Part shown: piece by piece, positions 1,445 to 40,750 of the stretch
Numbering within the stretch: the stretch's first letter is position 1
Layout: each line of letters starts with the position of its first letter
From: a virus
IMG/VR virus record: IMGVR_UViG_3300001460_000016
Location: 1-64,000 of that record
DNA: 64,000 nt
Direction: 5' to 3' (one strand)
The notes under the pieces: model-generated
The model's input: the letters and a program-made list of their open reading frames with translations, nothing else
Databases searched by the model: none
Told to the model about the DNA's origin: nothing
Translations under genes and position numbers: made by a program

Positions 1445-1445
<1 letters not shown>
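1..1445 (-). CDS. Collagen-like phage fibre protein, 3' end outside window
   Basis: Open reading frame that starts with ATG at 1445 and stays open to the left edge (about 481 codons visible), so the C-terminus is missing. It is probably a distal tail-fibre or receptor-binding protein. After an N-terminal region of about 80 residues come short Gly-X-Y runs (GPIGDTGPQGVTGNTG), then two alternating repeat modules: one built around TLGIDxTAIVHVAGISSDGG and one around AGGITFPDGTHQ. Each occurs twice and is also nearly identical in DNA. A further Gly-X-Y stretch is followed by the motif KYFIDTVQQDTIYLLRGQKY at the edge. The start lies just beyond the stop of the preceding collagen-like fibre gene, so the two form one transcription unit with the adaptor-like gene at 3403-3852. 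The product is a confident structural fibre; the receptor is unknown. Confidence 0.8.
187..286. repeat. Fibre-gene repeat module B, copy 1
   Basis: A 100-bp segment matching 550-649 with four mismatches by eye. It encodes the AGGITFPDGTHQ module and the TYVHAGTGISLD segment of the truncated fibre gene. It is in frame, so recombination between copies would change fibre length without breaking the gene. Confidence 0.85.
435..540. repeat. Fibre-gene repeat module A, copy 1
   Basis: A segment of about 106 bp that closely matches 828-933. It encodes the AGAGxTLxGSTLGID / VHVAGISSDGGITAGG module of the truncated fibre. The copies are most divergent at the outer end, near 520-540. Confidence 0.8.
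550..649. repeat. Fibre-gene repeat module B, copy 2
   Basis: Second copy of the 100-bp module at 187-286, offset by 363 bp (121 codons), which keeps the frame. Confidence 0.85.
828..933. repeat. Fibre-gene repeat module A, copy 2
   Basis: Second copy of the module at 435-540, offset by 393 bp (131 codons). Modules A and B alternate along the gene, so the A-B pair is duplicated with unrelated sequence between the units. Confidence 0.8.
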
Positions 1446-3402
<1,957 letters not shown>

Positions 3403-3406
<4 letters not shown>

Positions 3407-3852
3407 CTAGTTACCTCGGGTTCAACTTCAAATCTACCTTGAAGTATTCTGGTTACGGTACTGTCTGACAGGTTTGTCAATTCCAAATCATAAAAATGTC
3501 TACCAGATGGTATGTTTTGCATGGTAACATGATCAACTGATAAGAATATACCACCCGTTGTTCCTATTACACCAGCGGTACTAGAGTTCAATTCTATTCC
3601 ACCGATACCTGCAACACCACCAGTTCCCGTAAAATAACCAGTAGAACCACCACCGACAACACCCTTGTTACTGTCTCCGGTACTACCAGTTACAGAGAGA
3701 AGGATATTCTCGGTGGTGTAAGATTTTCTGACCTGCATAGAAGCAGAATATGTGTTTAAATCTACTACAACTTCAGATGAATTGTAGAATGTCACATGAA
3801 ACTTAAACGTACTTCCACGGTCTACTGTTATATTGTATTCGCCTGCGGGCAT
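3403..3852 (-). CDS. Fibre-associated structural protein, paralogue of the 38681-39184 gene
   Basis: A 149-residue protein of unknown function. The N-terminal part ([19 protein letters not shown], then [15 protein letters not shown]) resembles the beta-sandwich start of baseplate upper-protein-like modules. The C-terminal part ends with a strand pair and [10 protein letters not shown]. Both ends align by eye with the 167-residue gene at 38681-39184, while the Gly-rich centre differs. It is the first gene after a CTAAATA late promoter (3868-3874) and overlaps the 653-residue fibre gene by four bases. I infer that it attaches or nucleates the fibres encoded downstream. Late structural expression is well supported; the adaptor role is a hypothesis. 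Confidence 0.65.
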
Positions 3853-7730: not shown

Positions 7731-8489
7731 TCATAAATGATCACCTACCTTATTTACTCCTCTGTGTTGGACCACAATTGAAGCATATTCATTACCCCGT
7801 TGGATAGACTTACTTACATCTTTTGTTTTTAGATACTCTGAAATAAAACCCGTCAAAAAAGTATCACCTGCACCAGCTAGATCTTTTACTTCGACTGACT
7901 CTACCGGATATGATTTCCCATCATATAGGCAACCCTTTTCACTCAAAGTAACAATTAGTTTGGTATCAAAAGAAAAGTTACACTTGTCTAACATGTGTTT
8001 TGTTTTTTCATACTCATACTCATTTATTTTTATAAAGTTTACATCTCGACACCAATCACCTAGTTTCTTTTTAGTATCCATTATCACTAGTGGATGTTGA
8101 CATGATATCCATTTAATGTCACTTTCAGTTAAAAACCCATGATCATAATCTGAAATTATGATCGCATCGTATTTTTTAAAATCAATATTTTTTTGAATAT
8201 CTTTTATCCTTTCCACTCTTCTTCCATGAGAGTCTACTCGGATAATGCAGTGATTAGTTCTGTGTTCTACATATCTTGTTTTTGTTATCTCTTCTTCATT
8301 GGTCACAAGATCGCACTGATCTCCAATCGAAAGAAGATTGTCATACACATTCCTACACATTCCACCATTAGAAGTTTGATATAGAGACTCAAATACGGGA
8401 ACTGGTCCTTCGGGTGCAAGTCTTTCACACTTACCGTAGATGTAAATATCAACACAAGAATCACCAATAATTAATATTCTTGGGTTCAC
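7731..8489 (-). CDS. PfkB/HldE-type sugar kinase
   Basis: A 252-residue ribokinase-family enzyme like the N-terminal kinase domain of HldE. It shows GDSCVDIYIYG at the start, RLAPEGPVPVFE (the HldE RL-PE-PVPV signature), SDYDHG in the middle and the catalytic DLAGAGDTFLTGF anion-hole motif near residue 207. HldE kinase domains are usually just over 300 residues, so this one is shortened. The likely start is GTG at 8489, in a GTGA overlap with the previous stop; TTG at 8492 is the alternative. With the adjacent adenylyltransferase it would convert a sugar 7-phosphate through the 1,7-bisphosphate stage, but no GmhA isomerase or GmhB phosphatase was seen in this window. Confidence 0.82.
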   Translation of the reverse strand: MNPRILIIGDSCVDIYIYGKCERLAPEGPVPVFESLYQTSNGGMCRNVYDNLLSIGDQCDLVTNEEEITKTRYVEHRTNHCIIRVDSHGRRVERIKDIQKNIDFKKYDAIIISDYDHGFLTESDIKWISCQHPLVIMDTKKKLGDWCRDVNFIKINEYEYEKTKHMLDKCNFSFDTKLIVTLSEKGCLYDGKSYPVESVEVKDLAGAGDTFLTGFISEYLKTKDVSKSIQRGNEYASIVVQHRGVNKVGDHL

Positions 8490-8881
8490 CAACTAATCTC
8501 CCAATCTTTAAATTCACTAGCAAGACAGTCAATTTTATAATCTTGTCTTCCGCCTACCTTTTCCTGTATTTTATTTTTAGCCGTGTTACGAATTCCGTTT
8601 AATCCGTGAGTCAGACTCAAGTCTGCTCCTTCTTTTCCATTCCTGCAATCGGATTCATTGTGCCATATGTGAAGATTCATCTGAGACAAAACAACAATAT
8701 CTCGAATCATGTTCGCGTCGGGTTTATGTTCCTCTAACAATAAATCAATATCATGAAGAATAAGTTGAATTTCTTCAGAATAATTTTCTTTGTGTTCTGG
8801 AATAAACACTTCTTTCAATTGAGTAATACTCAACCGATCTATTAATTCTGATAGGGTGGGTAAATATTTTCTGTCTTTCAT
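8486..8881 (-). CDS. Conserved protein of unknown function in glycan operon
   Basis: A 131-residue soluble protein that I do not recognise with certainty. The start is ATG at 8881 (MKDRKYLPTLSELIDRLSI); a TTG five codons earlier is less likely because GGAG is spaced correctly for the ATG. The protein is helical, with conserved-looking motifs LSELIDRLSITQLK, LHIWHNESDCRNG and DYKIDCLASEFKDWE. Similar small helical proteins with a TL-EL-DRLSI start and an IWH-E motif occur beside polysaccharide genes, which is a recollection and not a search result. It is coupled by ATGA to the 44-residue membrane protein upstream and by a seven-base overlap to the kinase downstream, so a role in the same pathway is likely. 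Confidence 0.7.
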   Translation of the reverse strand: MKDRKYLPTLSELIDRLSITQLKEVFIPEHKENYSEEIQLILHDIDLLLEEHKPDANMIRDIVVLSQMNLHIWHNESDCRNGKEGADLSLTHGLNGIRNTAKNKIQEKVGGRQDYKIDCLASEFKDWEISW

Positions 8882-9012
8882 TTCCAAAATCTCCAAAAGT
8901 AAATTTCACGTTTTTTCGCATACCAGTCTAATCTAGGAGTGATCTTATGTAAGAGATAATTATACACTCTTTGTGCAAATAAACCTAATAAAAAACCTGC
9001 GATTATTTCCAT
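8878..9012 (-). CDS. Small membrane protein, 44 residues
   Basis: A short gene. The reading frame starts with ATG at 9012 inside the last codons of the epimerase gene and ends with TGA at 8878-8880, which overlaps the ATG of the next gene as ATGA. The product begins MEIIAGFLLGLFAQRVYNYL, one probable transmembrane helix, followed by a basic aromatic tail (YAKKREIYFWRFWK). It exactly fills the only apparent gap between the two flanking genes and overlaps both, as all other neighbours in this operon do. That is strong evidence for a real gene. It is likely an inner-membrane anchor for a glycan-assembly enzyme, which is inference. Confidence 0.72.
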   Translation of the reverse strand: MEIIAGFLLGLFAQRVYNYLLHKITPRLDWYAKKREIYFWRFWK

Positions 9013-9917
9013 TTTTCAATCTCTCTTATATAATAATCTACGCAACTCTGAATCCCATCCTTTAGATTTGTTTTAATAAACTGTACACCTTTTAGATAAG
9101 TCAGTACCTTTTTAGTATCAATTTTCTTTTCTTTGACACCAACATATTTATACAAATCGTGTTCAATTAAGTCGGAGTTATAATCAAAAGCGTCACATAC
9201 AAGAGTAGCAAATTCATTTATTGAATTATCTTCACCTGAACCCAAGTTAAATATCTGATTATCATAACCAAGAAGATTAATAATTGCATCAATAGCATCG
9301 TCAATATAAATTAGTTCTCTTCTCTGTTCTCCATTTCCCCATACTATAAACTTCTCATCTTTGTGTTTTGCATTATAACAATTTCGAACAAAATCAAAAA
9401 TGAAATGATTATCATCCAATTCAAAGTCTGGACCATACAGTGTAGAAGGAATAAAATATAACCACTTTAAATTGTGTTGTTTCTCTATTGACTGAAGACC
9501 ATTAAGCAACATACGTTTTGTCATGGCATATGTGTATAGACTTTCCTCTGGTTCTCCTAGAAGATAGTTGTCTTCTTTCATATGAATATCAGGTGAGTAT
9601 GAACAACTTGTTCCCATACAGATAATCTTTGATTGTGGTTGACATGTTTGCCAATATTTTAAAATATTGGTATTGATTGTTTGATTTTCCAACCATTGAG
9701 TGGCAGGATTTTTTAAACAATAATCTCCTGCTTTTGTCACAGCAGCCAAATGAAAAATATAATCAAATTTAATATCATTAAAACACCGCAAATTATCAAC
9801 ACTACTTAAATTAGCATGTTGTGTATTTGAAATTGATACATCCCATCCCAATTCTTTTAATTTTCGAACCAGATGAGTTCCTAGAAATCCTGTTGCACCT
9901 GTTACTAATACTTTCAA
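9003..9917 (-). CDS. NAD(P)-dependent nucleotide-sugar reductase/epimerase (GDP-fucose-synthase-like SDR)
   Basis: A 304-residue extended short-chain dehydrogenase. It has the GATGFLG cofactor motif at residues 7-13, the HLAAVTKAG segment, the serine of GTSCSYSP and the YAMTK catalytic pair. YGPDFELDDNHFIFDFVRN and WGNGEQRRELIYIDD resemble the substrate-binding and hinge regions of GDP-4-keto-6-deoxymannose epimerase-reductases. It therefore probably acts on a 4-keto-6-deoxy sugar nucleotide, although a related NDP-sugar cannot be excluded. It overlaps the C-methyltransferase upstream by four bases and the 44-residue membrane protein downstream by ten. No GDP-mannose dehydratase was found in the window, so its substrate may come from the host. 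Confidence 0.82.
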   Translation of the reverse strand: MKVLVTGATGFLGTHLVRKLKELGWDVSISNTQHANLSSVDNLRCFNDIKFDYIFHLAAVTKAGDYCLKNPATQWLENQTINTNILKYWQTCQPQSKIICMGTSCSYSPDIHMKEDNYLLGEPEESLYTYAMTKRMLLNGLQSIEKQHNLKWLYFIPSTLYGPDFELDDNHFIFDFVRNCYNAKHKDEKFIVWGNGEQRRELIYIDDAIDAIINLLGYDNQIFNLGSGEDNSINEFATLVCDAFDYNSDLIEHDLYKYVGVKEKKIDTKKVLTYLKGVQFIKTNLKDGIQSCVDYYIREIEKWK

Positions 9918-11140
9918 TTGATTACCACCTCTCTTGACACTACTTCAATTTCTGGAAATGGAATGATAAAACTAACTCCCTCTTCTATAATGTCTTGATT
10001 TTTCTTTATAATTTCGTCTGCAAAATTATGAGAAAGTAAAAGATAATAATCGGGGAGGTCGGTCTTGTCTTCTTTGTAAATTGGAATATGAGATTTTGGG
10101 AGATAGTTTCCAATTTTCATTTCGTTAATTTCAACGGACTTGTCTACAAGTGTTTTATCAATGTCAAAGTAATTTAGTAGAGTGTTGCCTTTTGCTGGCG
10201 CACCATAGACGTAAATTGTCTTTCCTTGTTCTTTCAGATCTACTAGAAAATCTTTCAGTTTCTCTTTACTACTTTCTACTTCCTGTGCAAAAGAGACAAA
10301 TGTATCAGTCGTGTATTTCTCATCTTTTCGTGCAAGTTCAATAAACCTATCAGTCTTTTTGTTTAGTGAACTATCTGAGTGACAAATCTTTGCGATGATT
10401 GAACCGCTATGAATGCCTGAATAATATCCGTCAAAGATTTCGAGTCCATAAGGCTTTAGAAGATTTGATAAACTCTTGATGGTATAATAACAAAGATGTT
10501 CGTGATAAATGGTATCGAAGTTCTTACCTTCAATCATTGCTCCTGCGTACATAAACTGAACAATCAATACACCGTCATCTCTTAGACTTTTCTTGATACC
10601 TCGAATTACACTGTGTAGTTCTTCTAGATGAAAGAAGACACCCGATGCGTTATAGAGTTTGACAGTCTTTTCGCCTAACTGACTATCTACAGTATCTTCA
10701 TCGAAGAATTCTGTAAGAGTGGGGACACCATTTTTTCTTGCAATGTTCGACACTCTAATCGCAGATTCTATGTTAAGAACATTATCACAACCGAGTTTCT
10801 GGTATTGTTTCAACTGCGAGCCATCATTTCCACCAATATCAACAATCAAATCGTCTTGTTGAATATCAAACTGTTCTGTGTTTTCTTTTGCTACTTCGTA
10901 AAAGTGATTGATAAGAGTATCAGTCATACCAGACAAGTATTGGTGGTCCTGAAACATAGTTTCCTTGGGAACGGTGTGGTCTAACTGAAGCAGTTCGCAA
11001 TCTAAACAAGTGCAAAGACGAAGGGGGTAAAACTTTTCCTTTCCCAAGTTTTCTTTGCTCAAGAAATCATTGCACCACGGCTGTTCGCCTAGGTCTAGAA
11101 TCAACTTTAAATTTGTACTGTTACATCCTCTACACTTCAC
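9914..11140 (-). CDS. SAM-dependent sugar C-methyltransferase (NovU/TylC3-like)
   Basis: A 408-residue three-domain methyltransferase. The N-terminus carries a zinc-binding pattern (CRGC at residues 3-6 and CTCLDC near 43-48). A class I SAM-binding domain follows with VDIGGNDGSQL and EHLCYYT. The C-terminal domain has YVYGAPAKGNTLLNYF, typical of the C-methyltransferase family that methylates C-3 or C-5 of 4-keto-6-deoxy sugar nucleotides. It overlaps neighbours by four bases on both sides. With the adjacent SDR it would build a branched or C-methylated deoxysugar. The three-domain architecture makes the family call firm; position and sugar are inferred. Confidence 0.85.
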   Translation of the reverse strand: MKCRGCNSTNLKLILDLGEQPWCNDFLSKENLGKEKFYPLRLCTCLDCELLQLDHTVPKETMFQDHQYLSGMTDTLINHFYEVAKENTEQFDIQQDDLIVDIGGNDGSQLKQYQKLGCDNVLNIESAIRVSNIARKNGVPTLTEFFDEDTVDSQLGEKTVKLYNASGVFFHLEELHSVIRGIKKSLRDDGVLIVQFMYAGAMIEGKNFDTIYHEHLCYYTIKSLSNLLKPYGLEIFDGYYSGIHSGSIIAKICHSDSSLNKKTDRFIELARKDEKYTTDTFVSFAQEVESSKEKLKDFLVDLKEQGKTIYVYGAPAKGNTLLNYFDIDKTLVDKSVEINEMKIGNYLPKSHIPIYKEDKTDLPDYYLLLSHNFADEIIKKNQDIIEEGVSFIIPFPEIEVVSREVVIN

Positions 11141-11892
11141 AAATATTCTCCTCTTTGAGTAACATCAATATCATATTTTTCAAACAAAGGCTTGAGTTCA
11201 TTTGGATATTCTTTTGTATTCCAAAGACCCTTCACCAGTGCAGTTGCGATGTGGGGGAATACCGAGGAATCATAGTGATACATTCCTCTTTTTGCTTCTT
11301 CTCTGAACACATATAATCCTTCAAGACCCAACTTCAAACAAACATCATTAGCATTCCATTCGAATGAGTTTTGCCAATCTGTATTTGCTATGTGTAAATT
11401 AGGGCCTTCTTGGTGGATTAATTCCAAGTCTCTTGTTTTCCAAAGACTGGCACTCTGACTGTAATAATAAGGAAGTCTTTTATCTGTAACAAACAAATCA
11501 TCACGGTCTTTGTAAGGCACAAGTGGAGTTTCAACAACTGAACCTTTAAAAAGTTTTATAAAGGAAATCCCATCCCTCTCCATAATGTCTTTGTAATTTT
11601 CAATTAATTCCTCTTTAACATTATCATATAGAAGATAGTCTTCGGAAATGTAAATGCAGTAATCTTCCTTTACCTCTTTTATTCCTGTTAAAAATTGTTC
11701 TCTGTACAGTTTATCTTTATCGTATTTAACGACATTGAAATCAGATGGAACCGAGTTGTTGGTTTCATCCGTAAACAGATACTTTTTTTCAAACAGTTGT
11801 GGAGATGTAAACTTTTTCAGTTTCCCAAAAAACATATCCCACACATCAGAGTTTTTGAAAACAGTATTTACAACTAGTGCTAAATTATCCAT
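11137..11892 (-). CDS. Putative GT-A glycosyltransferase
   Basis: A 251-residue protein with features of a GT-A glycosyltransferase but no match I can name. It begins NLALVVNTVFKNSDVWDMFF, has a central strand followed by an acidic motif in YCIYISEDYLLYD, which sits where a DXD metal site would be, and later shows SQSASLWKTRDLELI and an NDVCLKLGL segment. There is no signal peptide or membrane segment. It lies between a GT4 glycosyltransferase and a C-methyltransferase, overlapping each by 4-8 bases. The glycosyltransferase call rests on fold-like pattern and neighbours. Catalytic activity is not proved by the visible residues. Confidence 0.6.
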   Translation of the reverse strand: MDNLALVVNTVFKNSDVWDMFFGKLKKFTSPQLFEKKYLFTDETNNSVPSDFNVVKYDKDKLYREQFLTGIKEVKEDYCIYISEDYLLYDNVKEELIENYKDIMERDGISFIKLFKGSVVETPLVPYKDRDDLFVTDKRLPYYYSQSASLWKTRDLELIHQEGPNLHIANTDWQNSFEWNANDVCLKLGLEGLYVFREEAKRGMYHYDSSVFPHIATALVKGLWNTKEYPNELKPLFEKYDIDVTQRGEYL

Positions 11893-13111
11893 TCGTCACT
11901 TCCTCTATTAATGATTGCCATTTTTGCAAGACCTTTTCTTTGTCGTTAAACTCTTTTACATACTTATCGGCATTAATGCCCATATCAACTTTAGACTCAT
12001 AAACTTTAATCAAAGCCTCACCAAGTCCCACTGAATCATATGTGTCTACGAGATATCCGCTCTCCCCGTCCTTAATGACATCAGCAGAAACACACCTGTC
12101 AAATGAAACCAAAGGAGTTTTGTTGGATAGACACTCTACGCTCATCATAGGGCCTGCGTCTTCGATTGTGGTCTGAAGTCCGACATTAACAGAACGATAA
12201 ACATAGGACAAGTGTTCTCTTGTGGGAACATACCCTATCGGCATCCACCGAAACGGTTGAGTTTGCGAGAATGGAACTGAGGGGGCAGGGCCTGCACTCA
12301 AGACAACAACATCATCGGTGTCGTATCCTTTTTCTTTCATTTGTTTATATAAATGATTGAATGCTTCGTCTGCATACTTTCTTCCCTTTCTCGGGCCATC
12401 TGGATTTGTGGTTCCCCATAGAATTACAAACTTATCCTTTACCTCTTCTGGATAACCCAATGCAATCCGTGCCTCTTCTCTGCTTCCTTCGAAGACAGGA
12501 ATATCAAATGGAATTGGTATACATTCACATCTTTTGTCTTTGAATAATGAACTTTCCTTGAACAGTTTTAGACTGTAGTTGCTAACAGGCGCGCCTATAA
12601 TTGGAATATCATTCCAGGCTTCTTTTTTTCTTTGTAGGAACTGAAAGGATTTATCCTTATCGTCGGACGAAGGTGTGAAATCTTCACTCATATTTTTGTT
12701 TGAAATCATATGACCATTCGGAGCCAACTGCGGACAAGCACCACAGGAAGACTTAAATTTATCACAACCAAAGACATAACAACACCCACCAGTAAAGTGG
12801 TCATTCACCATACCAACAAAAACAATAGGACATTTATGTTTATCATAAATCGCCTTGACTGTTTCTGGATACAACAGACTATCATACAATATCACCACAT
12901 CAGCAGAATCAAAAGAATCCTCTACTCCAACCTGACTTCCCTCTACGGATATTGGATAGTATGAAGTATCTGGATTTTCTCTCCCCCGCCCAAGTCCAAG
13001 TATATGATGGGAATCATATGGAAGGTCACGCATCGCATTGAAAATAATCCAATTCCCAGAATCGTGAGAATTGTACATATCAACACCTGCAATGTGAACT
13101 ATTTTCTTCAT
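11885..13111 (-). CDS. GT4-like glycosyltransferase (GT-B fold)
   Basis: A 408-residue glycosyltransferase. The N-terminal domain contains a cysteine cluster typical of a GT4 subgroup (DHFTGGCCYVFGCDKF then CGACPQL, residues about 105-130). The C-terminal nucleotide-binding domain starts at FVILWGTTNPDGPRKG and carries the SVNVGLQTTIEDAGPMMSVE region, with the acidic/GPM segment in place of the usual EPFG motif. It probably adds a sugar from an NDP donor to a growing glycan on the inner face of the membrane. It overlaps the methyltransferase upstream by four bases and the putative GT-A gene downstream by eight. Family call is good; specificity is unknown. Confidence 0.82.
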   Translation of the reverse strand: MKKIVHIAGVDMYNSHDSGNWIIFNAMRDLPYDSHHILGLGRGRENPDTSYYPISVEGSQVGVEDSFDSADVVILYDSLLYPETVKAIYDKHKCPIVFVGMVNDHFTGGCCYVFGCDKFKSSCGACPQLAPNGHMISNKNMSEDFTPSSDDKDKSFQFLQRKKEAWNDIPIIGAPVSNYSLKLFKESSLFKDKRCECIPIPFDIPVFEGSREEARIALGYPEEVKDKFVILWGTTNPDGPRKGRKYADEAFNHLYKQMKEKGYDTDDVVVLSAGPAPSVPFSQTQPFRWMPIGYVPTREHLSYVYRSVNVGLQTTIEDAGPMMSVECLSNKTPLVSFDRCVSADVIKDGESGYLVDTYDSVGLGEALIKVYESKVDMGINADKYVKEFNDKEKVLQKWQSLIEEVTNG

Positions 13112-13821
13112 TTATTTATATTATCCTTAAAAAAATTATAATCGACAGGATTCAAAAAAGATTTCCAGTTTTTCTTTAAATCTGCGAAGGTCAAATTATC
13201 AATATCTAATCCCGACTCTGGTGCTTCGTTTTGTTCAAATTCATCTCTCTTCTTGTCTAGAATCACACTACAACAAGAAGTTACCACCGAGAACGATGTT
13301 AGTTCTGGGTAATTGCTTCGTGTATAAGTTAATGCTTTCCACGCATCTCCATTCTGTCCCACAATAGGCGTGTGGTTGGTCTGTTCCCTGAAGGAATAAT
13401 TATTCTTGTTGATGCTACTATAGAAATTTTCAAAATCGGCGGGAAGAACACACTGAACAATTTCATTTCTCGGTGCAGTATCGTGCAACACAATACTACC
13501 TCCTGGCTTTAGTATTTTTAATGACTCCTTTATTTCCGCAACAACAATGTCTGAAATATGGCAACCATCAATAAAAATAACATCATACTTGTTTTTATAT
13601 TCTCTTTTGTTTAGTGCAAAAAACACCATCGAAGGCATCCTGTGCGTAATACTAGGACACCCTCCATATGGGTCAACTCCGTGTTTTTTGTTTTTGGCAT
13701 TTACCTTTTGAAAGGTTGAACCTTCATCAACACCAATTTCTAAATAATCAATCGGATTCAATTTAGAAATAATATCAATTGGGTCTTCTGAATATAGATT
13801 TGTTAGTTTACCATCATACAT
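13108..13821 (-). CDS. Class I SAM-dependent methyltransferase (Methyltransf_24-like)
   Basis: A 237-residue methyltransferase. Motif I is YLEIGVDEGSTF near residues 27-38, an acidic strand end appears in GVDPYGG, the catalytic-loop-like FIDGCH lies near residue 83 and LKPGGSIVLHD is motif post-I/II. This pattern matches the family that O-methylates sugars or small hydroxyl substrates in glycan clusters. The C-terminal extension (DLKKNWKSFLNPVDYNFFKDN) is not recognised. It overlaps the aminotransferase upstream by eight bases and the GT4 gene downstream by four. O-methylation of the phage-directed glycan is the likely role. Confidence 0.8.
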   Translation of the reverse strand: MYDGKLTNLYSEDPIDIISKLNPIDYLEIGVDEGSTFQKVNAKNKKHGVDPYGGCPSITHRMPSMVFFALNKREYKNKYDVIFIDGCHISDIVVAEIKESLKILKPGGSIVLHDTAPRNEIVQCVLPADFENFYSSINKNNYSFREQTNHTPIVGQNGDAWKALTYTRSNYPELTSFSVVTSCCSVILDKKRDEFEQNEAPESGLDIDNLTFADLKKNWKSFLNPVDYNFFKDNINK

Positions 13822-14419
13822 TTTTATTAAATACCGTAAACTCTCTCAAGTCTCGGTAACCTCCTTCTTCAATAAGATCTGGTACGTTCTCTGGGTAGTT
13901 CTGCATCAGTGCAAGACCATGTGACGCCTGTTGTGGAGTCATATACATGTTCCATCCGAGCATCGTAATATCATCTTCCTTGTATGGTACTGCGTGTCGT
14001 CCTTCGTATCGTGCAACACGAAGCCAGTCAACAATATCTTTGTTGTCTGTCAGTACCATACCACCCTTACCAATCGGAAGATGTTTTTTGATATGAAAAG
14101 ACAGACACATGTTTGTGCCTTCGATATACATGTTAGAAGTAAGTCGTTTGGCGGAATCATAAATTGGATATGGTTTGAGTTGGTATATACCTTCCCATTC
14201 ATCGTTAGTAAACTTCACTGTACCACCCGAATGAATGATGGACTGGGGTACTGAGAGATAAGTCTTTGCAGGTATCTCAACCTCCCCAACACCAAAATAC
14301 TTACAACAAAGAAACAGAGCATCGGTGCAGGACGTAACCGCAACGGCATACGGCGCACCTGTATAATCAGCGACTGTCTCTTCAAACATATCTACAATTT
14401 TAAAAGGGTTATGTTTCAC
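13814..14419 (-). CDS. Short DegT/DnrJ-family sugar aminotransferase-like protein
   Basis: A 201-residue PLP-dependent DegT/DnrJ/EryC1/StrS-type protein, little more than half the usual length of about 370. The retained core includes TSCTDALFLCC (substrate/PLP phosphate loop), EIPAKTYLSVPQSI, the PLP-nitrogen aspartate in PIYDSAKRL, and the Schiff-base lysine region SFHIKKHLPIGKGGM. After about residue 150 the normal small C-terminal domain is missing and the gene stops at VFNKNV. The next frame is an unrelated methyltransferase, so this looks like a natural short form and not a frameshift. It overlaps the formyltransferase-like gene by four bases. It would aminate a keto sugar if active; reduced size leaves activity uncertain. 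Confidence 0.78.
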   Translation of the reverse strand: MKHNPFKIVDMFEETVADYTGAPYAVAVTSCTDALFLCCKYFGVGEVEIPAKTYLSVPQSIIHSGGTVKFTNDEWEGIYQLKPYPIYDSAKRLTSNMYIEGTNMCLSFHIKKHLPIGKGGMVLTDNKDIVDWLRVARYEGRHAVPYKEDDITMLGWNMYMTPQQASHGLALMQNYPENVPDLIEEGGYRDLREFTVFNKNV

Positions 14420-15249
14420 AGAAATTTCTTTCTCAATAAAGTAAAATCAACATCATCACTAACAACATCAAGGAGTCCAGACCCACACACAACCGTTGGG
14501 ATTCCTTTTTCAATTTTCCAGAACTTACCAGCGTTTTTGTGTGGGTCTAATATATTTAGGGGAGCAGATACACTCGATTCTTTTATGTGAATCAATTTAC
14601 CATCATACCATGTTGTTGCACCATCATAAGGATATCCATTAGCACATATTTTTCTATGAATATTTTCTGCTGAGTCTGTCCAGTCTATTCTCAAATCTTC
14701 TTCATTTTTCCAAACAGAAAAAGAACTCTTACTAAAATCTACATCAATTGGTTGCTCTCCATTGACTAAGATTTCCTCAATCAAAGACACATACATCTCG
14801 GCAATAAAATCAAATGCTTTTTTTATCTTTATGGGGTGAGTGATAGCCTTTTTACATCTACCAAAAACAGTTCCATAGTCGGGTCCGTGACCTTCGATGG
14901 GTCTAAATGCACTAACACCTATGTAATCTGCACCGTCTATTAATGCAGATACGGTTGGACAAAACCCTCTTCTCTCTGGAAGATATGAGTCATGTAAAAC
15001 AATATATTTTTCTAAGTCTCCCCTGATAAGATACTGCCAACCCACCATGAATACTTTGTCTACGGTTTTTTCTACATCATCTTTCCTATTGTAGAACTTT
15101 ATACCATCTGAATTACAGAACTTTTGAATTTCTTCGTATATATTTTTTTCTTTATTATCATACGAAACAACAAACTCAGGAGTAACACTTAGACTCTCCA
15201 GAAGTTTTAGTCCTTTATATCCAACCAACATCAATCCAAATTTCACCAT
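14416..15249 (-). CDS. Sugar N-formyltransferase-like protein
   Basis: A 277-residue member of the formyltransferase fold family (methionyl-tRNA and sugar N-formyltransferases). The signature region VLHDSYLPERRGFCPTVSALIDG corresponds to the H-SLLP-YRG loop, and the HGPDYGTVF segment follows. The C-terminal part (AENIHRKICANGYPYDGATTWYDGKL) fits the OB-like accessory domain. The usual catalytic triad is Asn-His-Asp; a His is visible in LHDS and an Asp in HGPDYG, but the Asn is not obvious. Placement beside an aminotransferase suggests N-formylation of an amino sugar using formyl-tetrahydrofolate. A housekeeping tRNA role is unlikely for a phage operon. Confidence 0.75.
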   Translation of the reverse strand: MVKFGLMLVGYKGLKLLESLSVTPEFVVSYDNKEKNIYEEIQKFCNSDGIKFYNRKDDVEKTVDKVFMVGWQYLIRGDLEKYIVLHDSYLPERRGFCPTVSALIDGADYIGVSAFRPIEGHGPDYGTVFGRCKKAITHPIKIKKAFDFIAEMYVSLIEEILVNGEQPIDVDFSKSSFSVWKNEEDLRIDWTDSAENIHRKICANGYPYDGATTWYDGKLIHIKESSVSAPLNILDPHKNAGKFWKIEKGIPTVVCGSGLLDVVSDDVDFTLLRKKFL

Positions 15250-21515: not shown

Positions 21516-22214
21516 TCAACTTTCACTGCTGTCATTAGTGTCTCCATTTGTTTTGACAGGATCATATGCAGGTGGAATTTCGATTCCTCGGGCAGTAAGA
21601 ACAACTTCTGTTAAATGTTTTCTCTTCATACCTTCGGGTAACTTATCGATTTCCTCTTGCGTTTCTTCAGAGAAGGGTTTGTAATCTCCAAACCCGGGCA
21701 TTCTAACTGGGCAAGAAACCCACGGATAATCCAATTTGGTGTAAGCACCACTATTGTCTGGATCATTTAAGAACGCTCTTGGTTTATCACCGCATCCACA
21801 TGCAGTGCAGAAGTACGCACCTTCTCTGTTATTACTTGCACTTCTATATGGACATGCTACCATTTCATCATCACCATGGCAAGAGAGAACTCGTAACTTA
21901 ATTAACTTCTCATCAGCCTTACCTTGAGTAACTCTAGAAGCAACAGACTTGCCGAAGTTCTTCACCTTATTAATCATAGATGGAGATTCGGGTGTTGCAA
22001 TTTCTTTTGGTGTTGATTCTCTTTCAGTATCCAAAGTAGTTTGAGTATTTGCACGATTTCGCCTATCCACAGATAACTGCGGAATAGACGGAAAAGTAGG
22101 TTGATTTAAACTGGGATCAGGTTCTATTTTTTTTTCCTGAACTTTTTTCAAATTAGCAGAAGCTCTGGCCGAATCTGGACTAGAACTTTTATTTTTACCG
22201 CATCCACATCCCAT
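21516..22214 (-). CDS. Cysteine-motif protein of unknown function
   Basis: A 232-residue protein beginning MGCGCGKNK (ATG at 22214). Residues 10 to about 110 are low-complexity and probably disordered. The C-terminal half has a likely zinc-binding set: LRVLSCHGDD, then CPYRSASNN, then YFCTACGCGDKPRAFL, then YPWVSCPVRMPGF. This looks like a small treble-clef or ribbon-type metal site and recurs in phages by my recollection, but I know no function. It sits between a 60-residue basic protein and gp45 in the replication block, suggesting a role in DNA or RNA metabolism. Confidence 0.72.
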   Translation of the reverse strand: MGCGCGKNKSSSPDSARASANLKKVQEKKIEPDPSLNQPTFPSIPQLSVDRRNRANTQTTLDTERESTPKEIATPESPSMINKVKNFGKSVASRVTQGKADEKLIKLRVLSCHGDDEMVACPYRSASNNREGAYFCTACGCGDKPRAFLNDPDNSGAYTKLDYPWVSCPVRMPGFGDYKPFSEETQEEIDKLPEGMKRKHLTEVVLTARGIEIPPAYDPVKTNGDTNDSSES

Positions 22215-22215
22215 A

Positions 22216-22398
22216 TCACCACTCCTCTTCGAATTGAGAGTCCCATTTATCTTCAATATCATCTTCTGAAAGATTCTTAAGATCTTTAAGGGACTGTTTT
22301 TCGTTGTGTCGTTTACTCTTTTTTTTATTCTTTTTGATAGACCGCGAACCTATATCACGGGTATCATCGTACTCTTCGTAATAGTATTGTTTTTTCAT
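22216..22398 (-). CDS. Small charged protein of unknown function
   Basis: A 60-residue protein. The start is ATG at 22398, one base after the RNase H stop, with AGGAA upstream; a longer frame to 22482 lies inside the RNase H gene and is not credible. Acidic-aromatic N-terminus (KKQYYYEEYDD), then a strongly basic centre (IKKNKKKSKRHNEK) and an acidic tail ending in EEEW. Probably disordered and nucleic-acid-binding. No named family recognised. Confidence 0.6.
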   Translation of the reverse strand: MKKQYYYEEYDDTRDIGSRSIKKNKKKSKRHNEKQSLKDLKNLSEDDIEDKWDSQFEEEW

Positions 22399-35928: not shown

Positions 35929-36342
35929 TCAGCGGGACTTCATCTTGTTAGCGATTGTTTTTCTTCGGTTCTTAAGATAACTGTCTGATGAATCTACATC
36001 ACCGTCGTTGTCAACATCTTTGTCTTCTTTGCCAACTGCATCTAGACCTTCTTTAACTTTCTTTTTTGTCTTTACTTCCTCGTCTTCGTCTTCGTCCTCT
36101 TCCTCGTCTTCTTCTTCGTCTTTGTCTGCAAAGGACTGACCGGTTTCATCGGTCTCAAGTTCCTTTTCAAGATCTTCTTCTTTATCTTTCTTTTTCTCAT
36201 CGAGAATAGCAGAAGCAATTTCTTCTCTTGCAATCTCAAGTCGATCGGCAAGTTTACTCATGAGAGTATCCTCGATAGCTTGCTTTACTTCTGATGGGTT
36301 TTCTTCGATTAACCCTTCAATAATTTTGTTAACGTGTGACAT
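35929..36342 (-). CDS. Prohead core protein (gp67-like) with dockerin-like calcium loop
   Basis: A 137-residue acidic protein at the position of T4 genes 67-68. Residues 1-48 are an amphipathic helix ([20 protein letters not shown]); residues 72-90 are almost pure Asp/Glu; the C-terminus has the EF-hand or dockerin-type loop [12 protein letters not shown] (about 109-120) followed by SYLKNRR. The Asp residues at loop positions 1, 3, 5, 9 and 12 are all present, so calcium binding is plausible. The protein probably helps form the scaffold core and is cut by gp21. It has its own TATAAATA promoter. Confidence 0.82.
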
Positions 36343-36367: not shown

Positions 36368-36375
36368 TATTTATA
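36368..36375 (-). promoter_or_regulatory. Late promoter TATAAATA of the core-protein operon
   Basis: Exact late octamer on the minus strand, 26 bases before the ATG at 36342, with AAGGAG near the start. It drives core protein, gp21 and probably gp22. Confidence 0.85.
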
Positions 36376-36386
36376 AAAACGTGTTT

Positions 36387-37754
36387 TTATCCAGCAGATG
36401 GTGGATATAATGTACCGCCGAAGTCTGTTTGGTAATCTTCTGGTAATCCTCCATCAGATTCTTGTCCACAAGAAGAAGATGTTCTTGTTTGACAATCAGT
36501 AGCAGGTGAATATTTGGGCCCGCCGAATGGAAGTCCTATAGGTACGGGTGTTGGTATGTTATATTTACCACCAAATCCTTCGTCTCGCAATTCTATTTTA
36601 CTCCAAGAATAAGTTATGCGTGGAACTTTAATACACTCGGAAAAATGTGTACCTTGTGGGCATGTTAAAATACCATAACACGCATATTGATAATAGGTTG
36701 TGCTTCCACTTTGACATCCGTTTGTGGTAGTCTCCGGTAAAAGATCTTCCAACGGTTCGCAAATAAATCCTTCTCCATAACCACATCCAAGTAAACATGG
36801 TATTCCACCGTATGAAATTGAAGAAGCTTGGTCTTGCGGACATGAATCAAATGCTCCGGGAACCTCGGGATCCTCTGATGTAATATTTTCAGTATGTTGT
36901 AGTCCAGAACCTAAATTTCCGGGAATGAACGAACTTGTTTCAAAATCTAGGAAAGCTGTTGTACCATCACTTGCTGTAAATTTCATTCGTCCATCATCTT
37001 CAAGTCCGTCACTTGGTGACCAACATGCTCTTACAGTTTTAGTTTCACATGTTTTAAATTCCACACTAGGTTCTCTTCTAGGTATTGAACATGGACAGTA
37101 ACAATATTCATTTGGATTGTAATCATTATCACAATCACAATCACATGTCGGACAAGTACAACCATTAAATCCTGCACACGAATCTGGAAGTTGAGATTCT
37201 GGCGGAGCACATTGCCTTACAATAAAACCTGACTTATATGAAGTAATTTCTATGCAGTGTTCTACATTTCCGCAAAAGCAACACTCTTCACTACAAGAAT
37301 CTCCAAGCCGACCATAACGAGTTATGTTTGACGGACAAGTATCTTCTTCTTCTTCTTGTTCACCCTCATCTTCAAATCCCGGTATTGGAATAACAGGAGG
37401 TCTAGGAATTGGTGGTAGGGGAGGTGGGATAATTGGCGGCGGAAGAAAAATGGGAGTTCTTACCGGAGGTGAATTAATAGTAATAGGACCGGAATCAATG
37501 TCACATAAATCCTGACCACAACATTGGTCTATACCTCTACCATCTAAACATGGAGTACACGGTTCTGGCATAAAATATTTACTATTATAGTCATCATAGA
37601 AGTAATGGTTTTTCTTATCTCTAATAGTTAAATCTAAAACTATTTCATCTCTTCTACGAGAAAGACTTAACGAATTTCCGCCCGTTAGAAGAACACTTTC
37701 AGTTGGTTTTATAATCTTTATATAACCAGTTATTTTTTGATTACTACCTTCCAT
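36387..37754 (-). CDS. Cysteine- and proline-rich protein of unknown function in head operon
   Basis: A 455-residue protein with about 33 cysteines by my count, very unusual for a phage of this type. Residues 1-60 are a hydrophobic or charged N-terminus without an obvious signal peptide (ILDL-like strands, [11 protein letters not shown]). Then come CTPC, a DQCCGQDLC group, a proline run (about 25 residues, over half Pro), an acidic [11 protein letters not shown] stretch, and a cysteine-dense region with [10 protein letters not shown] and [14 protein letters not shown]. Later cysteines are spaced 4-12 residues apart and resemble disulfide-rich extracellular repeats. It lies between the 305-residue gene and the core protein and has a late context. 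It may be a disulfide-bonded head fibre or decoration; that is inference. Confidence 0.75.
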
Positions 37755-37759
37755 AATTA

Positions 37760-38677
37760 TTATCCAATACTTATCGGGTTGGTTTGACCGGTTATATCAC
37801 ATGGATCAGCAAAAATTGTTACGTTTATTCTACCCTTTGGTAATTCAAACATTGATTCGTCTATTTCATATCTTTTATTGGTTTCTAAGTAAGAAGTTTG
37901 TTGTTCAATATATCTAGAAAGAATAAGAGAATTCATTTTAGGAATTTGAACAAACCAACCCCCATCATTGACAATTGCACTATAGTCCATTGTGTTTAGT
38001 CCATGTCGTATTTCTAGATAATATCTAGATCCAGATAACCACCACTGACCCTTATATCCAAATCTGGCGATATTTAAACCTTCATCGTTTCGCTGATCTG
38101 GTACAATTAAAGGTTGAAATATTGTGGCAGATGGACAAGAACCAGAATTATCCATACCTCTCGACCAGTGAACATCAATTATTGCATCATATGTTGGATT
38201 GAAGTCTGTAGTTTGTGTAAGAGAAAACGATATAGCAGAAACTACTTGGACATTATTACCAGTTCCACTGGCAGAATATTTTTTTGTTCCAAAATCTGTA
38301 TTAAGAATATTAGTACCATTAATATAATCACCGTTCGGATCTCTATTTAAAAATTGATCATCATGTAAAACTGGTGATCTAAATTGATTAAAGAATTTTT
38401 GTTTCCCTACAGGTGTGTTGCATTCCTGAATGGGAATTTGTAATCCGCTGAGGTCAATAGAGAAAAAAGGTCTTCTAGATGGATCTTGTTTAAATCCAGA
38501 AAGACATTGATTGGTTCCCATACCAACACTAATAGCTCCACTGGGAACTGCTGGATTTGATGTTTCCGGTAAAAATTCATCATCAATTTTATTTACAGAA
38601 ACTCTGTACAAATTGATAAAACTACCACCAAAATTTGCTACTTTAAATCCAGTGGTGCTTAGTACCCTCAGTGGCAT
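37760..38677 (-). CDS. Structural protein of unknown function in head operon
   Basis: A 305-residue beta-rich protein with no recognised family. It begins PLRVLSTTGFKVANFGGSFI and shows SIDLSGLQIPIQECNTP, DVHWSRGMDN, a YKGQWWLSGSRYYLEIRHGL segment and a C-terminal strand in RINVTIFADPCD. No membrane segment or signal. A strong GGAGG precedes the ATG. It sits between the fibre-adaptor paralogue and the Cys-rich gene, four to six bases from each, so the three are one unit. A capsid or neck surface role is plausible by position. Confidence 0.68.
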   Translation of the reverse strand: MPLRVLSTTGFKVANFGGSFINLYRVSVNKIDDEFLPETSNPAVPSGAISVGMGTNQCLSGFKQDPSRRPFFSIDLSGLQIPIQECNTPVGKQKFFNQFRSPVLHDDQFLNRDPNGDYINGTNILNTDFGTKKYSASGTGNNVQVVSAISFSLTQTTDFNPTYDAIIDVHWSRGMDNSGSCPSATIFQPLIVPDQRNDEGLNIARFGYKGQWWLSGSRYYLEIRHGLNTMDYSAIVNDGGWFVQIPKMNSLILSRYIEQQTSYLETNKRYEIDESMFELPKGRINVTIFADPCDITGQTNPISIG

Positions 38678-38680
38678 AAA

Positions 38681-39184
38681 TTAACCTCCGAAATTTGGAT
38701 CTGTTATGGTGGGAGATATAATGAATTTACCGGATATTAGTTTTTCTGCGAGAGCATCACCCGTGGTTCCACTTGATATTCCTCGATCATCGTATAGAAA
38801 AAGATCAAACATTGATGATCCAGATGCAAGTTGTGTGGATATTTCTTTAGAAAAAGATAGTGAAATTTGACCGGTTACTCCACTACTAGTGGCACCTTCT
38901 CCTGTATCACTATAGACGTACTCACCGTTTAAAGAAATATGTCCGGCGGTGGCACCCTTATTTGGTGATATAGATCCTGTTACACCATATGTGTTTGTAG
39001 TTGAAAATCGTAACTTTAGTGTATCATTGTTAGTATCGAGTTCGTATCTTTGTCCTCTAACATCCATCCTTGCCCAATAACCATAACTAAGATCAATAGG
39101 AACACCTGAATCATCATAATAGTTTATGTTGAGGACAAAGTTGGTTCCCTGTTCGTGTGAAATGTCGTAATTTGCTGAAGCCAT
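38681..39184 (-). CDS. Structural protein, paralogue of the fibre-adaptor gene at 3403-3852
   Basis: A 167-residue protein. Its N-terminus (YDISHEQGTNFVLNINYYDD, then DLSYGYWARMDVRGQRY) and C-terminus (SMFDLFLYDD, then LISGKFIISPTIT) align by eye with the 149-residue gene at 3403-3852, which precedes collagen-like fibres. The centre has Gly/Ser-rich strands. The fold resembles N-terminal modules of baseplate upper proteins. It lies three bases after the portal gene, an odd place for a fibre part, so it may anchor the two unknown proteins encoded after it. Role inferred. Confidence 0.68.
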   Translation of the reverse strand: MASANYDISHEQGTNFVLNINYYDDSGVPIDLSYGYWARMDVRGQRYELDTNNDTLKLRFSTTNTYGVTGSISPNKGATAGHISLNGEYVYSDTGEGATSSGVTGQISLSFSKEISTQLASGSSMFDLFLYDDRGISSGTTGDALAEKLISGKFIISPTITDPNFGG

Positions 39185-39187
39185 TTA

Positions 39188-40750
39188 CTACTCCTGATTG
39201 TCTTGATCTGCATTAATATCTATGTCGCCACTTTTCTCTTCTGCTCGAATTTGTGTTTCCATATCTTTAATTTCTTCTTCGGTCTGACGAAGAACATTCT
39301 TGCGAACAAAATCTCTTGAATAGTAAGTACCAATAAACTCTTCCATTTGTTGTAGGATCTCAAGTCGTTCTTTCATCATTTCAGCATTTTTCAATTCTGT
39401 GAAGTAAGAATCACGGATATAATCGAAACGAATATCCTGTTCTAGAGCCCTCCACTCTTCTTCTCGCATAATACCCTTGAGAATAACTTGAGTCTTAAGA
39501 AGATTAATAAACAGTTGAGAGAAAGCAGAACGTAACTTGTCTACGAATTTGGAGAACTTAAGTTCATCTCTTGTGATCTCTGATGCTCTGCCCATATTAA
39601 AACCACTGTCCGGTTCAAGTCGAGTAACAGGAACATTGAGGGCTCTGTAGAGTTTCTTCTTGAAGTATTCTACATCTTCCATCTCGCCTAGATTCTGACC
39701 ACCGTCCAATGTACTTATCTCGGTTCCTCTACCACCTTCTCGTCGAGGCAACCAGAAGTCTTCAAGCATTGTCATGTGCTTCTTGTCATCTTTGAGTTCA
39801 CCTGTAGACGCATCATAAACTAATTTGTTTCTATACTTGTTCATAATCTCTCGAAGATACTGTTCTGCTTTGGTCTTCGGTAATGAACCAACGTCAATAT
39901 AAAAGATTCTTCGTTCGGGAGCTCTAGAGATACGGTAGATTACTACAGCATCTTCGATCATCCTAAGTTGGTTGAGTGGTTTGATTGCCTTCTGAAGATA
40001 ACCAGTTACTCGTTTGTTTTCGAAGTCATACATTCCAGATGGAACATAACATATTGCTTCCTTTGCAATCTTAATACCATCAATACCTTGGTTATTTACC
40101 ACAGACATACCGCCGCCACCGTAACGATCCATGTATGCTTTATCATAATAAATGTAAAAGTCCTCGACTTTAGTTACGATAGGAACCTGCGTCGATGGGT
40201 CTTTTACCTTATCAATTTTCTTAATCTTTTTAATCTTTACCGCATCAACTGCACGAAGTTCCTTGATACCCTTTTTGGTAGCAGCAGGATCTACGATGAT
40301 GTGATAATACAATCGACCATCGATATACCATCGCCTGAAGATTTCATAACCCTTGTTTGCAAAATTCAGTAACCGAAGAACCGTATTAAACTCTTCGGTC
40401 ACTTTATCCTTGATTGTATCTGTTAGATTAGACTGATCAAGTCTAAGTTTTACGGCGGGATAATCCAACTCATAAACGATAGCTTCGTTTAGAATATCTT
40501 CCATTGCCATTTCAATTTCAGCATGAGCTGTCATTGAACGATACTTAATTATCATCTCAGCATCATTACGAACTGCACCATCTAGATCTAGATACTGTCC
40601 GTAATGTCCACCGCCACCAACAACAGTAGACCCATCATCGACCTCTGGTGGGACAAATGATGGGTTTACTAGTGTACCATCGGGTTGGATGATGGAACTA
40701 TCTAAATCTTTATTGTTTTTCCCGAATGAGAAACCAAATAGGTTCGGCAT
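39188..40750 (-). CDS. 20: Portal protein gp20
   Basis: A 520-residue portal protein that forms the dodecameric DNA entry ring and starts prohead assembly (T4: 524 residues). Family motifs include YRSMTAHAEIEMAMEDILNEAIV, the FEIFRRWYIDGRLYYHIIVD region starting at NKGYEIFRRW, ISRAPERRIFYIDVGSLPK, MNKYRNKLVYD, and DFWLPRREGGRGTEISTLDGG followed by YRALNVPVTRL. Identity is firm and the order after gp19 is that of T4. Confidence 0.96.
   Translation of the reverse strand: MPNLFGFSFGKNNKDLDSSIIQPDGTLVNPSFVPPEVDDGSTVVGGGGHYGQYLDLDGAVRNDAEMIIKYRSMTAHAEIEMAMEDILNEAIVYELDYPAVKLRLDQSNLTDTIKDKVTEEFNTVLRLLNFANKGYEIFRRWYIDGRLYYHIIVDPAATKKGIKELRAVDAVKIKKIKKIDKVKDPSTQVPIVTKVEDFYIYYDKAYMDRYGGGGMSVVNNQGIDGIKIAKEAICYVPSGMYDFENKRVTGYLQKAIKPLNQLRMIEDAVVIYRISRAPERRIFYIDVGSLPKTKAEQYLREIMNKYRNKLVYDASTGELKDDKKHMTMLEDFWLPRREGGRGTEISTLDGGQNLGEMEDVEYFKKKLYRALNVPVTRLEPDSGFNMGRASEITRDELKFSKFVDKLRSAFSQLFINLLKTQVILKGIMREEEWRALEQDIRFDYIRDSYFTELKNAEMMKERLEILQQMEEFIGTYYSRDFVRKNVLRQTEEEIKDMETQIRAEEKSGDIDINADQDNQE

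Follow-up and report, generated by a model that had tools for sequence, protein, structure and literature searches.

The window analysed here, a stretch of 64,000 nucleotides that forms part of a 77-kb virus record (IMGVR_UViG_3300001460_000016), carries on its minus strand genes in a T4-type order: terminase, sheath, tube and portal, then three genes referred to as A, B and C, followed by a small core-type gene, the protease, the scaffold and the major capsid gene (Table 1). Together with the portal, the tube and the sheath, the neighbours identified via PHROGs are the protease gp21 (E = 4e-81), the scaffold protein gp22 (5e-76) and the major head protein (7e-148). A preliminary description of this DNA had placed three genes between portal and prohead core, and the corresponding reading frames were indeed found there, tightly packed on the minus strand, with only 3–5 nt between portal and A, A and B, and B and C. 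Homologues of A, B and C keep the reading frame, with dN/dS values of 0.10–0.24 in comparisons with two relatives (L001 and L003); the conserved frame and the purifying selection indicate that all three are real genes. T4 late-promoter-like sites (TATAAATA) are present before the tube gene and between C and the core gene, both as pattern matches without a chance expectation; with this arrangement, A, B and C would come last on the tube–portal transcript.

Table 1. Features of the portal–core interval and of the collagen-like tail fibre module, in window coordinates.
Feature	Position	Strand	Evidence and remarks
Collagen-like tail fibre, 4-nt overlap with the A paralogue	1445..3406	-	PHROG tail fibre 1e-27; Pfam Collagen 6.5e-16
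A paralogue, 149 aa, directly before the collagen-like tail fibre	3403..3852	-	phrog_1084 8e-24; phrog_3304 'L-shaped tail fiber protein assembly' 1.6e-8
Small acidic gene of prohead-core type (68-like from its position)	35929..36342	-	Downstream border; position before gp21, composition, identity recovery
TATAAATA, T4 late-promoter-like, between C and the core gene	36368..36375	-	Pattern match only
Gene C, 455 aa, Cys/Pro-rich orphan, proposed variable fibre end	36387..37754	-	Homologues 30–91% identical
C residues 140–229, densest Cys region, 16 Cys	37068..37337	-	Cys counts
C residues 86–139, Pro/Glu-rich linker	37338..37499	-	Mean identity 0.22, no Cys
C residues 1–85, conserved N-terminal domain, proposed anchor	37500..37754	-	Mean identity about 0.5 to five distant homologues
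Gene B, 305 aa, orphan, proposed shaft/middle piece	37760..38677	-	Homologues 29–87% identical, same place
Gene A, 167 aa, fibre adaptor-type protein (phrog_1084 family)	38681..39184	-	phrog_1084 E 9e-12
gp20 portal	39188..40750	-	Cassette's upstream border; PHROG portal 5e-200

On profile evidence, A is a homologue of phrog_1084, a family usually encoded beside fibre genes; profile–profile comparison with known phrog_1084 proteins gave a probability of 98.1% (E = 6e-14). The members found in the isolated phages S-CRM01, P-HM2, HTVC008M and P-SSM2 are all located in fibre regions: they precede a collagen-repeat gene in S-CRM01, a YadA-domain gene in P-HM2 and a 3-kb gene in HTVC008M, and the P-SSM2 protein is annotated 'L-shaped tail fiber protein assembly'. 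Adjacency to a fibre gene is seen for the A paralogue of the window and for the family members of S-CRM01, P-HM2 and contig L099 (see below), whereas A itself adjoins the orphans B and C. A also differs from the proteins of the four isolates in that these, although homologous to A and mostly encoded ahead of a fibre gene, lie in tail-fibre modules and not between portal and core genes, and in length, A being longer (165–174 aa). In three other contigs (L035, L036 and L037), phrog_1084-type proteins near 9001–9460 adjoin, as judged by eye, glycosyltransferase-like and dUTPase-like genes, so that the family is not always beside an obvious fibre gene. The contig scan that used A as query returned no relatives. 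The protein would serve as an adaptor rather than as an assembly helper.

The most unusual composition is that of C. The preliminary description had counted about 33 Cys in this protein of 455 residues; the number is exactly 33 (7.3%), along with 49 Pro (10.8%), while the other listed proteins of the window have at most 3.6% Cys. Complete homologues of C carry 32–55 Cys, and no residue type is better conserved than Cys (0.76). CxxC pairs number three in the C of the window, none in L017, 0–3 in six homologues and seven in L029, and His is scarce in the homologues (1–6). Inspection by eye revealed no hydrophobic signal-like stretch at the N-terminus, in line with the signal peptide having been described as absent. 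In comparison with the same five distant homologues, conservation of residues 1–85 is roughly double that of the remainder of C, for which mean identity is 0.21–0.32; the Pro/Glu-rich linker that follows this N-terminal domain is replaced by Gly runs in the alignment of L017 and L024. The AlphaFold model of C is poor (pLDDT 42), residues about 230–288 being better, and that of B is weak (mean pLDDT 44) and beta-rich; the earlier characterization of B as beta-rich thus agrees with a low-confidence model only. Ribosome-binding sites upstream of C, considered as a clue to copy number, differ between relatives and were set aside. The C of L024 (L024:7468-8334) looks mosaic, its start resembling L023 and its later part being nearly identical to L017, which suggests recombination inside the gene. 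The other Cys-rich protein near structural genes (L073; 329 aa, 13 Cys) is encoded in the baseplate region of the same record, just outside the window (G000:C1:64929-65918), and a 248-aa ORF at 21516-22262 of the window has 8.1% Pro and a MGCGCGKNKSS stretch near its start.

B found no match, and C no known family, in PHROGs, Pfam, PDB profiles or isolated phages. Searches with tblastn of A, B, C and the divergent C of L029 against 50,697 phage records returned nothing, as did tblastn of C against plasmids and a Pfam search with A, B and C from the window; among the homologues of B and C, PHROGs gave single weak matches only. A PDB profile search with A, B and C gave no relevant chain, the solved proteins of phage Milano (see below) included, and Foldseek with the AlphaFold models of B and C gave no significant match. 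Neither Hoc/Soc nor fibritin (wac) was matched by the A, B or C of the window in PHROGs or Pfam.

Viral contigs yielded relatives of C with identities between 91% and about 30%; the relatives compared are contig fragments, and near-identical contigs were merged by eye before loci were counted. A, B and C occupy the same place in the same order in 9/9 distinct loci that reach C, which is complete in the window, L001, L003, L022, L017, L023, L029 and L061, and truncated in L024; the three genes do travel together, a point that the preliminary description had left for profile searches to settle. A further contig (L027) extends no further than the first part of B, which is divergent or frameshifted in it. 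In a portal scan, full-length portals fell in two groups, of 72–99% and of at most 55% identity to that of the window, and in the first group A was present in every contig continuing far enough past the portal. This clade is one of uncultured T4-like phages, and its likeness to marine phages makes it apparently marine.

The cassette stands out from its surroundings by its divergence. In blocks of 150 bases, DNA identity to L022 is 88–98% over tube and portal, 43–79% over A, B and C, and 82–90% in the core gene right after; the corresponding values for L003 are 86–96%, 52–83% and 83–88%. For the L022 pair, dN is 0.007 in the portal, 0.14 in A, 0.50 in B, 0.41 in C and 0.08 in the core gene. As dS is raised too, from 0.4 in the portal to 1.1–2.3 in the cassette, the pattern suggests an exchange of alleles and not just positive selection. 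In comparison with G005, the lowest identities are those of C (69%) and B (76%), other compared genes being 80–99% identical, and in comparison with G002 they fall to 31% for C and 34% for B, against at least 54% for the others; relative to the closest relative, G001, A (92%), B (86%) and C (87%) are inside the range of other genes. Judged from these identities, A, B and C form a hypervariable island between conserved head genes. A second variable region of the window (7731-15249, mainly 9914-13821) contains sugar/nucleotide-type genes, several of them unmatched in the otherwise collinear G001.

The interval between portal and protease genes was also inspected in other T4-like phages. In the isolates S-SM1, S-RS29, P-HM2, ACG-2014f and S-CRM01 it contains one or two small ORFs. 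Among contigs of other lineages, with portals about 50–54% identical (a small, non-random sample, some possibly near duplicates), seven (L082, L084-L087, L089 and L109) encode near the portal stop a collagen-like protein with 24–57 GXY triplets, followed, in contigs long enough to show it, by core and protease genes; in L084, an Mtd_N protein comes next. These fibre-type proteins share the gap with A, B and C but are unrelated to them in sequence, a collagen triple helix taking the place of the Cys-rich domain, and an A homologue is found only in L099 (E = 3.7e-7), where the protein after it has 30 Cys and a collagen stretch of 10 triplets. By its sequence, L099 is an intermediate combining adaptor, cysteine richness and fibre repeat. 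The C-terminal part of this 30-Cys protein (L099:8160-9957), inside whose gene the contig ends, resembles by eye a nucleotidyltransferase motif. A different insertion, starting with an ADP-ribosyltransferase-like gene, occupies the gap in L097, L100, L102 and L111; the one tested, directly after the portal in L097 (L097:2201-3175), is Alt-like. In T4, Alt is a packaged head protein. With such varied contents, the gap is an insertion site that often, but not always, holds fibre genes. A 2010 comparison of 26 T4-like genomes reported hot spots near gp5, gp46-gp25, gp16-gp17 and psbA, and gp20-gp21 is not listed among them (PMC3037559).

Considered together, the fibre-associated family of A, the constant order of A, B and C, the local hypervariability, the conserved Cys residues, the fibre genes in the gap of other lineages and a C protein with a conserved N-terminus and a variable remainder make it likely, in our judgement, that A, B and C are a late operon encoding the structural parts of a fibre or spike at the virion surface. 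Fibres and receptor-binding proteins usually combine a conserved anchor with a distal part that varies. Counted against such a fibre are the orphan status and poor structure models of B and C, the phrog_1084-type genes of L035-L037, which have no obvious fibre neighbour, the Alt-like ADP-ribosyltransferase that sometimes takes the gap, and the comparison with G001, in which the cassette is no more divergent than several other genes. If the three products are part of the virion, A would join the fibre to the particle, as an adaptor or assembly piece, B would be its middle piece, and C would be anchored via the conserved domain formed by its first 85 or so residues, with the variable domain displayed beyond a flexible Pro- or Gly-rich linker; the disulfides of C would form after lysis, on release from the reducing cytoplasm. 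The fibre would decorate the neck/portal vertex or the head, and there contact the host or protect the particle; as a guess, we would rank the neck or portal vertex first, then the head surface, then the tail.

The nearest functional parallel, by analogy and not homology, may be the neck fibre of the Anabaena myophage A-1(L), the product of three genes, in which a trimeric adaptor sits on the neck and bears a bead chain and a distal protein (PMC10966104). In A-1(L), likewise a contractile-tailed phage, three adjacent genes (gp82-gp81-gp80) supply the adaptor, a repeated middle protein and the distal protein, roles like those proposed here for A, B and C; unlike A, B and C, the A-1(L) operon lies far from the head genes and is not Cys-rich. 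Common descent of the two was rejected: with gp80-gp82 picked from the record by position and length, hhalign probability was below 1% in the four pairings run.

Of the other readings, the one that survives best, itself unlikely, is that the head or collar is clad in B and C and held firm by disulfide cross-links, for robustness and not for host contact. The high Cys content and the head-operon position speak for such a coat, and there is a precedent in the Agrobacterium phage Milano, a myophage whose particle is stabilised by disulfide networks, with disulfide-joined collar, decoration and linking proteins (PMC10491603). Milano also qualifies the earlier statement that disulfide-rich proteins are rare in cytoplasmically assembled phages (PMC10491603); C would be a similar case, its place in the virion being predicted where that of the Milano proteins is established. 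However, no sequence match links the two phages, and the Cys enrichment of Milano is spread over many structural proteins, whereas here the portal has one Cys and the capsid protein five. A capsid-wide decoration should moreover track the slowly evolving capsid, and B and C diverge most; A is fibre-associated, and PDB profiles gave no match.

Less probable still is that the products are enclosed in the head together with the core and cut by gp21, in the manner of the T4 internal proteins or Alt. The cassette lies beside core and protease genes, and the ADP-ribosyltransferase-like genes that open the gap in four contigs of other lineages would suit this reading; yet the [LI]xE pattern, which is of the gp21 type and may not be that of this gp21, is absent from the first 60 residues of A and present there in only 1/8 C proteins, though in 6/9 B proteins near residue 36–40, so that B may yet be trimmed. 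The richness in Cys, the flexible Pro/Gly linkers and the conservation of the Cys would also better fit an oxidising exterior. A zinc-rich protein that assists the assembly of portal or core, as a factor or chaperone, and is not itself part of the mature virion is very improbable, even though the genes lie between those of portal and core and Cys can bind metal, because the few CxxC pairs (counts only) and the scarce His form no consistent zinc-site pattern and because a protein serving the conserved portal and core would not be expected to diverge more than anything else in the head region. Thus, of the possibilities raised in the preliminary description, the head or neck surface structure is best supported in the form of a fibre, to which the family of A, the divergence and the collagen-like proteins in the gap have been added, and the zinc factor is disfavoured.

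The proposed surface fibre is probably a so far undescribed part of the phage particle. More tentatively, and with somewhat less than even confidence, the portal–protease gap of aquatic T4-like phages could be a general, unrecognised locus for head or neck fibres, which in one clade would hold a new fibre class, made of a phrog_1084-type adaptor, an orphan beta-rich middle protein and a disulfide-rich protein of hypervariable sequence containing as many as 55 Cys, exchanged between phages as a cassette. If so, this uncultured T4-like clade would have, besides its tail fibres, a second, fast-evolving surface organelle, encoded at a spot usually regarded as a conserved head operon; it would represent a disulfide-stabilised type of fibre for structural study, and a host-range or protection module that could be scored from environmental sequence.
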